Source of the DNA: a virus
Strand: one strand, 5' to 3'
DNA: 48,268 nt
IMG/VR virus record: IMGVR_UViG_3300043172_000805
Coordinates: 1 to 48,268 of that record
Part shown: one piece after another, positions 1,772 to 41,930 of the stretch
How the letters are laid out: each line of letters begins with the position of its first letter
How positions within the stretch are numbered: position 1 is the first letter of the stretch
Translations under genes and position numbers: made by a program
The notes under the pieces: model-generated
The model's input: the letters and a program-made list of their open reading frames with translations, nothing else
What the model was told of the DNA's origin: nothing
The model's database searches: none

Positions 1772-3774
1772 TCCGCCACCTGCTTATGGTCGCCATTGCC
1801 CTGCTACCCTACGCCGATCTGCTCGCCGCCGGCGCCGAGGCCTGGACCCCGGCGCCCCGTCCGATCCGTTGGCAATGGTGCGAGCAGAATCTGCGGATCC
1901 CGTCCGAGACGGCCGCCACGCCAGGCCGCTTCGACGTCCAGCAGGACCACGCCTTCCTGTTGGATATCTTCGAAGCGATCGACGACCCCGACATCCGCAA
2001 GGTCACGATCATCGGTTGCAGCCAGATCGGCAAGACCGAGTTCATTCGAGCCATCGCGCTAAGCCAGGCCGAGGTGGCCCGCGCGCCGATGATGCTGGCC
2101 GGGCCCGACGAGATCTACTCGACCGAGCAACGCGACGAGATCTACGCCCGGGCCCTGGCCTCGCCCGCCCTGCGCGACCGCGTGCCCGAGCGGGCCGCCT
2201 GGAACAAGCGGATCATCGACCTCGAAAAGTGCCGCATCTTCCTGGCCTGGTCGGGCAGCTCGCAACGCATGAGCGGCCGGGCCTGCCGGATCGTCTTGGC
2301 CTCGGAGGCCGACCGCTGGCAGAAGTCGCCCGCCTTCGTGGAAGAGCGCGTCAAGGCCTTTCCCGGCGGCACGACGATCATCGTCGAGGGGACGCCGGTC
2401 GGCGCCTCGCCCTACCTCGAGGCGTCCTACCAGCAATCCGATCGCCGCACATTCGAGGTGCCCTGCCCGGTCTGCGGTCACCATCAAGAGTTGCGGATGT
2501 TCCCGCACCGCCACGGCCCCTACGCGGGCAACGGCGGCGTGGCCGGCATGAAAAACGATGCCGACAAATGGCTTTCCCCCGAGGAAGCTCGTCTTAACGC
2601 CTACTACCTATGTGAAAGGGGCTGCCGGATCGAGCCCGATCAGAAACACGACATGGTCCGTCGCGGCGTGTGGGCGGCCGAGGGCCAAACCGTCAACAAG
2701 GCGGGCAAGCGGGTCGGCAATCCGACCTATCCGGGCCGACACGCCGGGTTCCGGTTGAATTCGCTGATGAGCTCCACGATCGGCTTCGGCGACATGGCCG
2801 AGAAGTGGCTGACCGTCCGCGACGATACCGAGTTATTGTGCCGCTTCTGGAACGACTGGCTCGGCCGGGCGTTCATCCCCCGCGGCAAGACGCCCCGCTG
2901 GAAAGACCTGGGGATTCGTCTGGCCGGCAGCCACGCCCGGGGCACGATCCCCGCGTGGTGCTATTTCCTCACCGCCGCCTCCGACGTCCAAGAGCGAGGT
3001 TGCTACTGGATCGTCCGCGGCTGGGGCGACGGCAAGACGTCGGCCCTGGTCGACTTCGGCTACCTGCCCAAAGACTTATTGGGCGGCGAGGAAGACAGCG
3101 ACGCGACCGAGGCCCGCCTGGCCAGCGACCTGGCCAAGATCGATCCGGTCCTGTTGCAACGCCGCTTCCCGGTCGACGGCGTCAACCCGGGCGGCTTCGA
3201 GCAGTTGGCCGTCCGGATGTTGGGTATCGATCGCGGCTACCGGCAAACCGACGTGGCCACCTTCCTGGCCGCGCACCCGGGCCCCCGCGTGCTGGCCGTT
3301 TTCGGCGACCCTCAAATAACGCCTGGCAGCCTCTACCGGCCCATGAAGACCCAGCGCGACGTACATACCGGCCGGATCGACGAAGACGACCCGCGAACCT
3401 GGGGACTCGAAACCAACGCCTTCAAGTCCGAGATCGCCGATCGCTGGATGATGGCCGACCCGACCCAACCGGGCGGCTGGTGGCTCCCGTCCGACATCCT
3501 CCAGACGGACCACGGCGAAGACTACCTGCGCCAGATCACCGCCGAAACCAAGTCCCTCGAACTGGTCAACGGCCGCAAGGTATTGCGCTGGAACCTGATC
3601 AGCCACAACCTGCCGAACCATTACTTCGATTGCGAGGTCTACGCCAACGCGATCGCCGAGATGATCACCGGCGGCGACTGGGACGCCAGCCATTGGCGAA
3701 TGCCCGTGCGGAGGCCACCGGTCGACGCGGATGTGTCGGTGAGGGAACCGCAGGAGGGGTTTGCTGCGCGGTGA
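1768..3774 (+). CDS. terL: Phage terminase large subunit, GpA family
   Basis: A 668-residue GpA-type packaging motor. A P-loop GCSQIGKTE lies near residues 82-91 and an ATPase Walker B-like IVLASEADRW near 174-183. A CPVCGHHQE zinc-ribbon cysteine pair near 232 is typical of the GpA subfamily, and an RNase H-like nuclease half follows. The start is the ATG at 1768, coupled to the small subunit stop; the N-terminal hydrophobic stretch (MIRHLLMVAIALLPYADLLA) is unusual and may mean that initiation is slightly downstream. The stop codon lies in the first unit of the octamer palindrome after the gene. Confidence 0.92.
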   Translation: MIRHLLMVAIALLPYADLLAAGAEAWTPAPRPIRWQWCEQNLRIPSETAATPGRFDVQQDHAFLLDIFEAIDDPDIRKVTIIGCSQIGKTEFIRAIALSQAEVARAPMMLAGPDEIYSTEQRDEIYARALASPALRDRVPERAAWNKRIIDLEKCRIFLAWSGSSQRMSGRACRIVLASEADRWQKSPAFVEERVKAFPGGTTIIVEGTPVGASPYLEASYQQSDRRTFEVPCPVCGHHQELRMFPHRHGPYAGNGGVAGMKNDADKWLSPEEARLNAYYLCERGCRIEPDQKHDMVRRGVWAAEGQTVNKAGKRVGNPTYPGRHAGFRLNSLMSSTIGFGDMAEKWLTVRDDTELLCRFWNDWLGRAFIPRGKTPRWKDLGIRLAGSHARGTIPAWCYFLTAASDVQERGCYWIVRGWGDGKTSALVDFGYLPKDLLGGEEDSDATEARLASDLAKIDPVLLQRRFPVDGVNPGGFEQLAVRMLGIDRGYRQTDVATFLAAHPGPRVLAVFGDPQITPGSLYRPMKTQRDVHTGRIDEDDPRTWGLETNAFKSEIADRWMMADPTQPGGWWLPSDILQTDHGEDYLRQITAETKSLELVNGRKVLRWNLISHNLPNHYFDCEVYANAIAEMITGGDWDASHWRMPVRRPPVDADVSVREPQEGFAAR

Positions 3775-3841
3775 CGGGGTGAGGGGGTGACGGGGTGACG
3801 CAAGCGATTGTCACCCCGTCACCCCGTCACCCAATCACCCT
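3771..3841. repeat. Octamer-armed palindrome A
   Basis: Tandem TGACGGGG/TGAGGGGG units run into a core CGCAAGCGAT (3799-3808) and then into inverted TCACCCCG units. The arms can pair into a long hairpin. The same architecture and core recur at 4331-4400, 20640-20715 and 40938-41010. The repeat supplies the stop codon of the large terminase gene. It could act as a transcript stabiliser or terminator, or be a mobile palindromic repeat. Confidence 0.8.
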
Positions 3842-3855
3842 AACGGAGAACCGAT

Positions 3856-4323
3856 ATGGCCAAGAAGAAACCGAACCAACCGACCGCCACGAAGCCGGAA
3901 CCACTGCCCCCTCACACGCTGGGGAGCCAGCAAGCCGGCAAGTCGATGGAGAACCTTGTTGACGAGACGCCTGTCGAGCCCGAAGAGCAGGTCGAGACGG
4001 AGACGGCCGAGCCCGAGACGGTCCAGCCGCGGCCCGGGCAGACGTTTTGCGAGGCGTGCGGCGGGCCGATGACGGTCCGATCCACGACGGCCGAGCGCCG
4101 CTATTACAAGTGCGACGCCTGCGGGGCCACGAGCAACCTCGACCGCCCCCCGCGCGTGCCCCGGGAAACGGCCACCTGCCCCTACCACCCCAAAACCAAG
4201 TGCAAGCGCGAGGCCCGATCCGGCATCGTGGTCGATCGCTGCCCCGTACCCGGCTGCAACTACCGCCAACCCTACATCCCGGCCGGCTATCAACCCCCGC
4301 CGGATGACTTTTCCGCCCGGTAG
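3856..4323 (+). CDS. Zinc-ribbon protein of unknown function
   Basis: A 155-residue protein with a charged, Glu/Pro/Thr-rich N-terminal half (1-63). The C-terminal half has paired cysteines: FCEACGGPM (about 66-74), YYKCDACGAT (about 86-95), then CPYHPKTKC and CPVPGCNY. It looks like two zinc-binding ribbons, the first close to an ordinary RNA-polymerase-like ribbon. It lies between terminase and portal, flanked on both sides by octamer palindromes, which suggests it moved as a separate cassette. It may bind nucleic acid; no specific function is recognised. Confidence 0.7.
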   Translation: MAKKKPNQPTATKPEPLPPHTLGSQQAGKSMENLVDETPVEPEEQVETETAEPETVQPRPGQTFCEACGGPMTVRSTTAERRYYKCDACGATSNLDRPPRVPRETATCPYHPKTKCKREARSGIVVDRCPVPGCNYRQPYIPAGYQPPPDDFSAR

Positions 4324-4330
4324 GACGGAA

Positions 4331-4400
4331 CGGGGTGAGGGGGTGACGGGGTGATCGCTTGCGCGTCCCCTCACCCCCTCACCCGATCACCCCGTCCCCT
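4331..4400. repeat. Octamer-armed palindrome B
   Basis: GGGGTGAGGGGGTGACGGGG arms face CCCCTCACCCCCTCACCC arms across the core ATCGCTTGCG (4354-4363). This is the reverse complement of the core in copies A, C and D, so this copy lies in the opposite orientation. It follows the zinc-ribbon stop directly. Confidence 0.8.
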
Positions 4401-4402
4401 CG

Positions 4403-4473
4403 TTTTTACAGATCCTGTAAAGACCTCCAAGAATTCCCGAAAATCTTCGCCCCGTTTTACAGATCCTGTAAAG
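4403..4473. promoter_or_regulatory. Twin operator-like palindromes
   Basis: Two identical sites TTTACAG-ATC-CTGTAAA (4405-4421 and 4456-4472) sit 51 bp apart, centre to centre, in the gap before the gpW-like gene. Each is a perfect 7-bp inverted repeat with a 3-bp spacer, an operator-like shape. The spacing is near five helical turns, which would place both on one DNA face. A related ACAGT/ACTGT pair occurs at 24559-24574 before the glycosyltransferase cluster. The binding protein is unknown. Confidence 0.5.
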
Positions 4474-33071: not shown

Positions 33072-33314
33072 CTACGGGTTTTTCCGGCGGTTGAGGATTA
33101 CCCGTAGGATGATATCGTCGGGCAGGTCGTAGTAGCCGTGTTTGCGGCGTACGTCGTTGCAGAACTGTTCGGCCTCCCGGGGGTGCAAGAGCAGTTCGTC
33201 GACGGTCCACCCGTCGCGGTAGATGGCCGAGAAATCGTTGACCACTTGGTCGGTGAATTCTTCTTTGGGTAGTGACACGCCGAAGTCCGACAGCTCGAAT
33301 CGCCCTCTTCCCAT
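33072..33314 (-). CDS. Small minus-strand protein, possible lysogeny gene
   Basis: An 80-residue protein starting MGRGRFELSDFGV after AAGGAG. HPREAEQFCNDVRRKHGYYD near 47-66 is followed by LPDDIILRVILNRRKNP, giving a helical pattern seen in small phage or plasmid proteins of unknown role. An upstream in-frame ATG at 33365 lacks a good ribosome-binding site. It lies downstream of a minus-strand promoter candidate and upstream of the membrane protein gene. Confidence 0.6.
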   Translation of the reverse strand: MGRGRFELSDFGVSLPKEEFTDQVVNDFSAIYRDGWTVDELLLHPREAEQFCNDVRRKHGYYDLPDDIILRVILNRRKNP

Positions 33315-33403
33315 GAGAAACTCCTTGTAGAACTGGGTTTGTGACGTCTGACATACCGTAGACATGGCGAGGCTCCCAAGGGATTCGAGTGCTGGAAACC
33401 CCG

Positions 33404-33432: not shown

Positions 33433-33475
33433 TAGCAATTCCCCAGCCCCACCCCAGATCCTGATCCAGTACCAA

Positions 33476-33554
33476 AGTCCGGTGCGCGCCCTGGATTAAG
33501 AGTCCAGGGCGCGCCCGAGGCTGATTGTCACCGGACATGTAGTCCGGTGCGCGC
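33476..33554. repeat. Perfect hairpins and direct repeats beside the att region
   Basis: GCGCGCCCTGGA (33484-33495) pairs perfectly with 33503-33514 across TTAAGAG. CACCGGAC (33529-33536) pairs with GTCCGGTG (33542-33549). AGTCCGGTGCGCGC occurs exactly at 33476-33489 and 33541-33554. These could be integrase/accessory arm sites or bidirectional terminators. Confidence 0.6.
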
Positions 33555-33573
33555 TCCCCCCAAGAAAGCAGGG

Positions 33574-33646
33574 GCCGCCGAACGCTGAAAGCCGTGACTA
33601 AACCGCTTCGCGCATGCCCCGGTGAGGGGCTTTTCTGTTCGGCGAC
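33574..33646 (+). ncRNA. Structured RNA candidate, copy 1
   Basis: A 73-nt element with outer stem GCCGCCGAAC/GTTCGGCGAC, a hairpin AAGCCG/CCGCTT with loop TGACTAAA, a conserved TCGCG and a hairpin GCCCC/GGGGC with loop GGTGA. It closely matches copy 2 (same length), with changes that keep pairing. Strand is assigned by the shared order of motifs; either strand could be transcribed. Confidence 0.5.
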
Positions 33647-33716
33647 CCCATGGTTTCACGAAGCCCAACCCCCTAGATCGGGCCGATTTTCAGAGAATCC
33701 GAAAATAAAAGCGGGA

Positions 33717-33789
33717 GCCGCCGAACGCTGAAAGTAGTGACGAAACTGCTTCGCGTGAGCCCCCGTGAGGGGCTCTTCGTTCGACGGCC
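33717..33789 (+). ncRNA. Structured RNA candidate, copy 2
   Basis: A 73-nt element 143 bp after copy 1. The outer stem is GCCGCCGAACG/CGTTCGACGGC, the first hairpin AAGTAG/CTGCTT with loop TGACGAAA, and the second hairpin GAGCCCC/GGGGCTC with loop CGTGA. Compared with copy 1, A-T replaces a C-C mismatch in the first hairpin and the second stem is longer, so structure is retained while sequence changes. No known RNA family is recognised. Confidence 0.5.
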
Positions 33790-33811
33790 CCCATTGTGGG
33801 CCGTAAGCCAC

Positions 33812-33840
33812 GTAACTCCCCATGCTATAGGGAGTTACGC
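33812..33840. repeat. Perfect 10-bp inverted repeat
   Basis: CGTAACTCCC (33812-33821) and GGGAGTTACG (33831-33840) flank CATGCTATA, ten bases before the tRNA-like fragment. It may be a recombinase-binding site or a transcription barrier. Confidence 0.6.
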
Positions 33841-33849
33841 GACGTTAAG

Positions 33850-33896
33850 CGAGGGCGAGGGGACTCGAACCCCCAACCACCGGATCGACAGTCCGG
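33850..33896 (-). other. attP-like core: 3-prime half of tRNA-Asp
   Basis: On the minus strand the sequence folds exactly as tRNA positions 27-73. The anticodon arm is CCGGACTGTCGATCCGG (loop CTGTCGA, anticodon GTC = Asp), the variable loop TGGTT, the T arm has TTCGAGT, the acceptor 3-prime strand is CGCCCTC, and the discriminator is G, right for Asp. No CCA and no 5-prime half (D arm, acceptor 5-prime strand) is present. This is what an attP core of a phage integrating in a tRNA gene looks like; the integrase is 0.6 kb away. Confidence 0.75.
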
Positions 33897-33897
33897 T

Positions 33898-34480
33898 GAC
33901 ATATGTCTGTCATCAGTAGTCCCGACCGTTGTGGTCGGTGCATGAGGAAGAGGCGGCAGAATCATCTTGACAGGATTTACCCTAGTGGTAGATTCACGGG
34001 CCGTGACTAAAATCGTTTCGCTCGACCTCGACCTCTTGTGAGCCCAACACGACTTTCTAGCGACCCAATCAACACGACGGTCCTATCGAAGGTCTTCTTA
34101 TTGGCTCGGGTGGCCTTGGCCGCGCGATAAGCGCGGCCGGGCATTGAAACGTTGCCTGTCCGGCCTAAACCCGAGCCCTTCATGCGTCGATAACGGCCTT
34201 CGGCCTCGGTGCCTTGCGCACCGAGGTCGGAGTCCGGACGCTACCGGTATGCCCAGAACTATCCGCATAATCCCGATGCGTGCTTTCCCCGGATTCTCCT
34301 GGGGGAATTCCCCAGACTGTTTGACGGTCGTATCGGTCGTGCAGGCAATCTCCGCAATCAAACGCGAGCCATGTGGTATACTTAACCTACATTACCCAGT
34401 CCAGCTTTTCTACTTTTTCGACGGGCACTGCACGGATAGTAGCAGTGGTGCGACGGACGCCCGCACCAAGGGGGTCACCC
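33898..34480. other. Non-coding att/regulatory region before the integrase
   Basis: No credible protein gene here. It holds the palindrome GACATATGTC (33898-33907), the stem CCGACC/GGTCGG, a promoter-like TTGACA (33967-33972) with TAGATT (33989-33994) at 16-base spacing, and just after it CCGTGACTAAAATCGTTTCGC, which resembles the core of the 73-nt RNA candidates. The hairpin GGCCGCGC/GCGCGGCC with loop GATAA (34118-34138) and a further stem CCTCGGTGC/GCACCGAGG near 34212-34231 follow. A TATACT (34377-34382) may be the -10 for the integrase. Confidence 0.5.
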
Positions 34481-35401
34481 ATGATCCGAGCGATCACCGT
34501 GCGCGAATTCTATGTCCAGACCTACCGGCTCCGGAAACTGGCCGGCAGCCCGGCGACGACCAACCAGGAGTATTGCGGCTGCCTGAACCACTTGCACCGG
34601 TTCTGCGGCCACGATCCGACGCTCGGCGAATTGTCCGGGGACCTGATCGCCGCCATCATGTGGGATCTTATCGAGCGCGGCCGAACACATGCCACGGCCA
34701 ACAAGTTCCTCACGCACATTCGAGCGATCTGGGCATATGCGTTCCAGCGCAAGCTCGCGACCGAGCCCGAGCACGTCGATCGACTGAAGGAACCCAAGCG
34801 GCTGCCCAAGGCGTGGCGCGATCACGAAATGGCTCGGATTCTTCAGTCGGCCGCCCAGCAGCCGGGCGAACTGTGCGGCACGCCGGCCAACTTCTGGTGG
34901 TGTGCCCTGCTGGGCACGCTCTACGAGTCGGGCCTACGGATCACCGCCACGATGCGGAGCCGCTGGGAACACTTCGACCTGATCGACCGGCGGATTGTCG
35001 TCCCGGCGGAGGTCCAGAAACACGGGGTCGAGGAGTCCCATCCGCTCTCGGAACAAACGATGGAAGTCCTGCTGCGGATACGATCGCCCAAGTGGCTCTT
35101 CCCCTGGCCTTACGACCGCAATATCCGCCAGTGGAATACGTTGACCCGGCACCTGCGCAAGATCCTCGTACGGGCCGGCCTGCCGACGACCTGCAAGGAC
35201 CTCTTCCACAAGTTCCGCAAGACGAATGCCTCCTACATCAAGGCGGCCGGCGGCGATCCCACACTGCAATTGGGCCACTCGTCCCCGCGAGTCACCGAAG
35301 CCTATCTGGATCGCGGGATCACCGGCCTGGGCAATCAACTCGACCTGTTGCCGCGCACGCCCATGCCGACCTTCGGCGACACGCAACTCACGCTCTTCTA
35401 G
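34481..35401 (+). CDS. int: Tyrosine recombinase/integrase
   Basis: A 306-residue integrase. The N-terminal SAM-like core-binding domain covers about 1-95. The catalytic set is Arg153 in SGLRITA, Lys in VQKHG near 183, His243 and Arg246 in FHKFRKTNAS, His266 in LGHSSPRVT and the nucleophile Tyr275 in EAYLD. It would integrate the circular phage at the tRNA-Asp target suggested by the nearby att half. ATG 34481 is chosen because upstream codons lie in the non-coding region. Confidence 0.9.
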   Translation: MIRAITVREFYVQTYRLRKLAGSPATTNQEYCGCLNHLHRFCGHDPTLGELSGDLIAAIMWDLIERGRTHATANKFLTHIRAIWAYAFQRKLATEPEHVDRLKEPKRLPKAWRDHEMARILQSAAQQPGELCGTPANFWWCALLGTLYESGLRITATMRSRWEHFDLIDRRIVVPAEVQKHGVEESHPLSEQTMEVLLRIRSPKWLFPWPYDRNIRQWNTLTRHLRKILVRAGLPTTCKDLFHKFRKTNASYIKAAGGDPTLQLGHSSPRVTEAYLDRGITGLGNQLDLLPRTPMPTFGDTQLTLF

Positions 35402-35808: not shown

Positions 35809-36129
35809 ATACCAAGAATACCAAAAAACACGGAAGGACCACGACAATGGGTAACTCGAATAGTAATGGCGGAGCCGGGGGCATTGGGTTCTGTGGCGTC
35901 CTGACGATTGTCTTTGTCGTCCTGAAACTGTGCGACGTGATCGACTGGTCGTGGTGGTGGGTACTCTCGCCGCTATGGATCGCACTCGCTGTCTTGTTGA
36001 GTATCGTCATGTTCCTTGTCCTGGTGATCGTCGCCATTCGGATCGGCAAGGCGGGCTGGCGGTTGGCAAGGAGTGGATCGAATAACCAATGATCAATAGG
36101 CAAAGCCACTTATACCAAGAATACCAAAA
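35809..36129. repeat. ATACCAAGA-ATACCAAAA nonamer pair, two copies
   Basis: The 18-bp run ATACCAAGAATACCAAAA occurs at 35809-35826 and 36112-36129, each followed by (A/G)ACACGGA. The copies flank the membrane protein gene. Both read YQEYQKTR in one frame. Confidence 0.7.
35847..36092 (+). CDS. Small two-helix membrane protein
   Basis: An 81-residue protein. After the Asn/Gly/Ser start come two strongly hydrophobic segments ([18 protein letters not shown], about 15-32, and [20 protein letters not shown], about 42-61), then a basic tail. It may be holin-like or an immunity protein. ATACCAAGA/ATACCAAAA repeats lie before and after it. Confidence 0.55.
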
Positions 36130-36230
36130 GACACGGATGGACCTCGCGTCGACTCGATGCGGTGGCTCTCCACGGAGGGGCCCGACGGATTTCGGGCCGA
36201 CGAGACGGATCGTAGGCACGGAGTGTCTTT

Positions 36231-40848: not shown

Positions 40849-41021
40849 CCTACGCGCGGGCCGGCGGTGAAGGCGGGTACGACTTCAAGCCCTTGTCCTT
40901 CGGTCAACCGGCCGTCGGTCCGCGTCTTTTGGAAAGGAGGGGGTGAAAGGGTGACGGGGTGAGAAGGACGCGCAAGCGATCACCCACTCACCCCGTCACC
41001 CTCTAACCCCCGGAGAAACCC
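40849..41021. other. Intergenic region with octamer palindrome D
   Basis: GC-rich spacer. 40938-41010 carries GGGGTGAAAGGGTGACGGGG, the core CGCAAGCGAT (40971-40980) and CACCCACTCACCCCGTCACC. Before it is a stretch with GGCCGG/CCGGCC pairing potential (40860-40910). No small gene seen. Confidence 0.7.
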
Positions 41022-41930
41022 ATGAGCAAAATCGCCTGGACCGACGAGTCGTGGAACCCGGTTACCGGATGTACCAAGGTATCGGCCGGCTGCGCGAACT
41101 GCTACGCCCAGCGGACGGCGAAGCGGCTCAAGGCGATGGGCCAGGCGAAGTACGATCACGCCGACCCGTTCGCCGTGCGGTGTCATCCGGATGAGTTGGA
41201 GCGGCCGTTGCGGTGGAAAAAGCCTAGGAAGATCTTCGTGAACTCGATGAGCGATCTGTTCCACGAGGACGTGCCGTTTGAGTTTATCGATCGGGTGTTC
41301 GATGTCATGGAACGGGCGTCGTGGCACACGTTTCAGGTCTTGACTAAGCGGCCAGAGCGGATGGTTGAGTTCTTCGGCGGCACCTCTGGCACTGGTCTCT
41401 CGGCACCAGCCCTCCCAAACGTCTGGCTGGGCACGTCGGTCGAGAACCAGGCGGCGGATGAGCGGATTCCGCATCTACTGGAATGTCCGGCGGCGGTCAA
41501 GTTCCTCTCGATTGAGCCGCTGCTGGGGCCGCTGGATTTGACGAGTATCGATACGCATCGCACATGGCCCGGCAAGGGCGAAACGTCGAAGATAAACGCA
41601 CTACAAGGCTATGCCTCATCACGCAGGGAGCGGTTTGTGCTCAATGGCATCGTCGAGGAATCTGGCAATGGGTGCCGCTTTGTGGACCGCCAGTTTAGCG
41701 GCAAGATCGACTGGGTCATCGTCGGCGGCGAGTCGGGCCCCGGGGCGAGACCCATGGAAACCGACTGGGTGCGGGCCATTCGCGATCAGTGCGTCGAGGC
41801 GAAGGTGCCGTTCTTCTTCAAGCAGTGGGGAACAGCGAAGTGGGTCTCGGCGAAGTGGGTCGATATGCGACAAGACGACGGCGGCCTGCCGGTCTTGGAT
41901 GGGCGGACCTGGGCGGAAATGCCCGGGTAA
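41022..41930 (+). CDS. Phage Gp37/Gp68 family protein (DUF5131)
   Basis: A 302-residue protein. The start [20 protein letters not shown] continues CANCYAQ, with cysteines spaced as in this family and resembling a radical SAM-like FeS site. [31 protein letters not shown] and [16 protein letters not shown] then FFFKQWG are family signatures. The biochemical role is not established. It starts after CCGGAG. Confidence 0.85.

Follow-up and report, generated by a model that had tools for sequence, protein, structure and literature searches.

Integron attC sites carry boxes of the form RYYYAAC ... GTTRRRY with inner L boxes, fold into one helix and are the substrates of an integron integrase. Small RNAs complementary to phage leaders have been described in other systems: the CI RNA of P4 pairs with seqA and seqC (PMC4825925), and the inter-inverted-repeat transcript of PLE shows antisense homology to the leaders of PLE genes (PMC7567579).

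The locus considered here lies in a 48,268-base virus record, analysed over its whole length (the window), in which terminase, portal and head protease are encoded at the left. About 1.1 kb without a convincing gene separates a 97-aa minus-strand gene (start at 33365) from a tyrosine integrase, and two structured elements are located inside this interval (Table 1). The core-binding domain is the first domain of the integrase protein and also of its relative in contig L023 (40%); a further integrase relative is present in L031 (31%) and a relative of the 97-aa gene in L029 (66%). Contig L029 also encodes, on its minus strand at 1618-1721, a phage tRNA with a very long variable region or insertion (104 nt), which was found by Rfam and missed by ARAGORN. 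Elsewhere in the window, 41022-41927 encodes a DUF5131 (phage Gp37/Gp68 family) protein with its best matches in plasmids (44-49% identity), and a direct repeat of about 30 nt (taccaagaataccaaaaNacacggaNgga) occurs at 35810-35840 and 36113-36143, between short genes that lie downstream of the integrase. Intergenic palindromes composed of GGGGTGAC/GGGGTGAG units form a family at 3761-3838, 4321-4397 and 40943-41007, the palindrome at 4321 having a T-run after it on the plus strand, and an operator-like palindrome, TTTACA-GATCC-TGTAAA, occurs twice (4405-4421 and 4456-4472), 51 bp apart.

Table 1. Features of the attP region and its neighbouring genes (positions in the window)
Feature	Position	Strand	Remarks
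97-aa gene	33072-33365	-	downstream of the elements on the minus strand; relative in L029
Second integrase core-type site	33529-33549		7-bp arms identical to those of the attP core site, spacer CATGTAG
T-run TTTCTT after copy 1 closing stem	33562-33567	-	12-mers with at least 6 T make up 2% of the window
Element copy 1, 79 nt	33571-33649	- (favoured)	closing stem 33649-33637 with 33583-33571; hairpin A 33630-33616; hairpin B 33611-33584 (stems on minus)
T-run TTTTATTTT after copy 2 closing stem	33702-33710	-	12-mers with at least 8 T make up 0.12% of the window
Element copy 2, 79 nt	33713-33791	- (favoured)	closing stem 33791-33779 with 33726-33714; hairpin A 33775-33757; hairpin B 33754-33727 (stems on minus)
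Palindrome between tRNA 3' end and copy 2	33811-33839		perfect-looking, 13-nt arms
tRNA 3' part (attP)	33850-33898	-	Rfam tRNA match at 28.4 bits, slightly below the family's gathering score (29)
attP core site (anticodon stem-loop)	33878-33898		CACCGGA-TCGACAG-TCCGGTG; 7-bp arms, 7-bp spacer
Promoter-like TTGACA-16-TAGATT	33967-33994	+	upstream of the integrase; such sites about as many as expected by chance
Third core GCCGTGACTAAAATCGTTTCGC	34000-34021	+	weak match to hairpin B of copy 1
XerC-like tyrosine integrase	34481-35401	+	without arm-binding domain

An earlier reading of the sequence alone (the sequence-only reading) had reported two copies of an element that share a common 18-mer and lie 143 bp apart, and this twin arrangement is confirmed as real and sound. 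The 18-mer, GCCGCCGAACGCTGAAAG, is present at 33574-33591 and 33717-33734; the 143 bp are measured from start to start, leaving a gap of 63 bp between the folded units. The repeat is about 90 nt long with 78% ungapped identity, while the elements themselves are about 85% identical, with 12 substitutions and two gap positions between them. The sequences that separate and flank the copies show no homology (P 0.47 and 0.28 for the flanks), and the unit therefore has sharp edges, at about AAAGC...CCCCAT. The elements are apparently non-coding, and a covariance model built on them (R1) detects only these two copies in the phage.

As the sequence-only reading had stated, the elements match no recognised RNA family: Rfam 15 gives no family over them at its gathering cut-off and nothing there at E values up to 10, and a mir-H3 match in that range to the hairpin at 33477-33520 was set aside as chance. 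Neither ARAGORN nor Rfam detects a tRNA or tmRNA over the elements, only the attP part matching tRNA. In viral contigs an exact 17-mer yielded 21 matches, all in other contexts, and degenerate hairpin-B patterns yielded 0 and 44 matches, the 44 without a closing stem; the same kind of pattern gave four chance matches, also without a closing stem, in genome contigs. Blastn against phage and plasmid records returned only the tRNA part and short chance matches. Relatives sought via the integrase, the terminase and the 97-aa gene (L023, L028, L029 and L031) contain no elements, L028 being a short, near-identical contig in which this region is not covered. As relatives of both the integrase and the 97-aa gene come without the elements, the latter are not tied to either gene. 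Model R1, which as a positive control finds both copies in the window's own record, had no match in about 1,140 genomes from three phyla: 396 from the Acidobacteria (L024), 349 from that to which L026, a Betaproteobacterium, belongs, and 396 from the Nitrospirae (L027); these phyla are those of three chance matches and may not include that of the host. With no homologue in viral contigs, genome contigs, phage or plasmid records or these genomes, there is no independent covariation, and to claim a new RNA family from two copies in one phage would be premature and unproven.

The three-stem fold that had been described is borne out by energy z-scores on both strands. Each copy forms a 13-pair closing stem that encloses hairpin A, of 5 pairs in copy 1 and 7 in copy 2, and hairpin B, whose 10 pairs are interrupted by bulges, with z-scores against dinucleotide shuffles of -3.5 and -4.2 on the plus strand and -5.8 and -5.6 on the minus strand for copies 1 and 2, respectively. 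When the whole window was scanned in 80-nt frames, copy 2 on the minus strand ranked third and the neighbouring hairpins at 33481 ranked first. The latter belong to a stretch at 33476-33554, the most significant fold of the window, which has two strong GC hairpins and a 14-nt repeat, AGTCCGGTGCGCGC, in two exact copies and one imperfect copy. Taken as a whole, 33440-33911 forms hairpins in an ordered chain, with a z of -9.25 for the minus and -8.56 for the plus strand. Hairpin A (CCCCCGTGAGGGG) may resemble type I-C CRISPR repeats. A hammerhead-like reading (CUGA ... GAAA) was dropped, there being no stem II and no Rfam match. An integron attC site was rejected by reading, since GCCGAAC/GTTCGGC break the consensus at the fourth position, L boxes are absent and the fold is a three-way junction, and the phage integrase scores 21.4 bits against the cut-off of 265 for the integron integrase model.

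The claim that differences between the copies preserve pairing stands in part. Pair 46-57, mismatched in copy 1, is A-T in copy 2, and 12 random substitutions keep equally many pairs with P 0.0017 on minus and 0.0047 on plus, for a structure drawn from the same sequences. Four pairs, in contrast, form on a single strand only: closing-stem pairs 3-77, 5-75 and 8-72 are paired in both copies only on minus, as G-U (A-C on plus), and hairpin B pair 45-58 of copy 2 is formed only on plus. With 27 of 28 pairs formed in each copy on minus and 26 of 28 on plus, the base changes do not decide the strand. The fold had originally been drawn on the plus strand; its structure holds, but we favour the minus strand, because there a T-run follows each closing stem and the elements lie downstream of the attP tRNA part. 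The plus strand is possible, and as T-rich TTTTCTGTT or TTCGTT follows hairpin A on that strand, a plus-strand terminator is possible too. The same data bear on whether the elements are neutral, a palindromic repeat like REP or MITE sequences that was duplicated within the phage or picked up from host DNA beside the tRNA gene. Such an origin would fit the sharp edges and unrelated flanks, and the phage does have a second family of this sort in the intergenic palindromes of GGGGTGAC units (3761, 4321 and 40943), but we consider it quite improbable: pairs are kept more often than under random mutation, the repeat occurs just twice in the phage, and the genomes searched, which did not include the host, gave no copy.

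That the elements lie beside attP, as previously proposed, is supported by the 3' part of a tRNA, directly downstream of which they are found on the same (minus) strand. From its anticodon GTC and G73 we read this part as tRNA-Asp. As expected of an attP, the 5' half is absent; ARAGORN finds no tRNA here. About 42 nt resemble tRNA-His genes of the Acidobacteria, Betaproteobacterium and Nitrospirae phyla (L024, L026 and L027); assignment of a host by this likeness failed, as the anticodon and acceptor end differ. The host tRNA gene was looked for and not found, and the exact attP sequence does not occur in other viral contigs. The motif CACCGGA-N7-TCCGGTG has only two exact matches in the 48 kb, at the attP core and at 33529-33549, so that the elements sit between two integrase core-type sites; five of the six occurrences of TCCGGTG in the window fall in the attP-element stretch, with a half-site at 33478. 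The spacers of the two sites differ and the sites should not recombine together by the usual mechanism, which points to a binding site or a remnant at 33529-33549. Their exact arms on either side of the elements, in a stretch that is palindromic on both strands, raise the possibility that the elements act as DNA, as folded or protein-bound attP palindromes that shape a recombination complex with the site at 33529-33549. We regard this as rather unlikely: the integrase has no arm-binding domain, the element arms are unlike the core arms, the T-runs are left unexplained, and the varying closing-stem pairs keep pairing only as G-U, which would help an RNA and not duplex DNA.

The reading that we tentatively prefer, at somewhat short of an even chance, is that the elements are structured non-coding RNA units on the minus strand that form the 3' trailer of a tRNA-Asp gene reconstituted on integration, perhaps with an added role as small RNAs. 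The XerC-like integrase would recombine attP within the anticodon stem-loop, joining the 5' half of the host tRNA and its promoter (the host promoter side is assumed) to the 3' half supplied by the phage. RNA polymerase leaving the tRNA would then meet first the palindrome at 33811-33839, next copy 2 and lastly copy 1, both with a T-run behind them; at each copy a long closing stem followed by U-rich RNA would stop transcription and define a 3' end, and this stop would keep the tRNA promoter from driving the minus-strand genes of the prophage. The sequence, the fold, the T-runs, and the position and order of these parts are read directly from the DNA; from them we infer transcription, termination and expression in lysogens only. 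The trailer reading is argued for by the 13-pair closing stems kept in both copies, by T-runs that follow these stems on minus in both copies with none on the plus side, by the elements' place immediately after the 3' part of the tRNA, in the same orientation, and by the hairpin chain of 33440-33911 with its z of -9.25 on minus. The contrast between unrelated flanks and elements of about 85% identity is as expected if only the elements are constrained, and the gene relatives without elements indicate that these are not leaders of the integrase or the 97-aa gene. A G+C-rich stem followed by a U-rich run, as in intrinsic terminators, is clear in copy 2 and weak in copy 1, where the T-run is short and 3 nt off the stem. 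Against termination as the function, a three-way junction and a conserved hairpin-B sequence exceed what a terminator needs, and a simple terminator scan of the region gave three sites where 1.4 (sd 1.5) were expected, which is not above chance; the T-rich sequence after hairpin A on plus and the base changes that fit either strand count on the same side. A terminator or trailer is nevertheless the most economical reading, a regulatory RNA being more exciting and less supported. If the elements do end or process the host tRNA transcript, they would illustrate how a proper transcript end is restored by a phage that splits a tRNA gene.

A third related core had been noted just after a promoter-like sequence. 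It is indeed present at 34000-34021, but its relatedness is only suggestive. Its alignment to copy 1 spans 22 columns with a single gap and has P 0.008 against shuffled sequence, yet a score as good is reached by 4 of 164 other blocks in the window. Overall the match is weak (P about 0.01-0.02), and the covariance model misses it even with the filters turned off and a cut-off of E 10. Were the elements RNAs of the minus strand, the third core would be complementary to hairpin B, which would make it a possible target at the integrase promoter and no copy of the element. Alternatively, the match may be due to chance. The corresponding proposal is that the elements are regulatory small RNAs on the minus strand, cut from the tRNA trailer or made from their own promoter, that silence the integrase in the lysogen in the manner of the P4 CI RNA, hairpin B pairing with the integrase leader over its first 20 nt. 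The match does reach the very start of the predicted integrase transcript, the hairpin-B loop falls inside it, the duplex energy of copy 1 with the third core is among the five best in 48 kb, and both P4 and PLE provide precedents for antisense RNAs that target leaders. We nevertheless think this unlikely, as the match is unexceptional within the window, copy 2 pairs far worse and no minus-strand promoter was found in the region. A more specific version, which we consider very doubtful, is that such an RNA would not be made in the free phage, where attP offers it no promoter, and would be switched on from the host tRNA promoter to pair with the integrase leader and lock lysogeny; integration itself would then be the switch. 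Should the elements also be small RNAs, their expression would be tied to integration without a repressor protein.

Compared with known systems, the elements would share with P4 CI RNA and the PLE transcript the character of a small phage or satellite RNA complementary to leaders of its own genes (PMC4825925, PMC7567579), although here the RNA is a prediction and the complementarity weakly significant, and the likeness is one of description. The PLE transcript also lies between inverted repeats (PMC7567579), which in this phage are the integrase core-type sites. A structured non-coding phage stretch next to tRNA sequence is likewise a feature of the GOLLD and ROOL RNAs (PMC12286853); in contrast to these, the present locus has no Rfam match, its units of 80 nt and hairpin chain of about 440 nt are far smaller, and its tRNA part is an attP and not a tRNA island. 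As at attP sites of the lambda kind, short repeats occur on both sides of the core (GTGACNAAA at 33594, 33737 and 34003), but three occurrences in the window are not significant (1.03 expected; 8 of 100 shuffles reach three), and the integrase has no N-terminal arm-binding domain, so that these repeats do not qualify as arm sites. Intrinsic terminators behind attachment-site tRNA genes show the same stem followed by a T-run, on the tRNA strand and downstream of the tRNA 3' end supplied by the phage; the elements described here differ from them in being present in two copies, in forming a three-way junction rather than one hairpin, in their conserved hairpin B and in the short T-run of copy 1.
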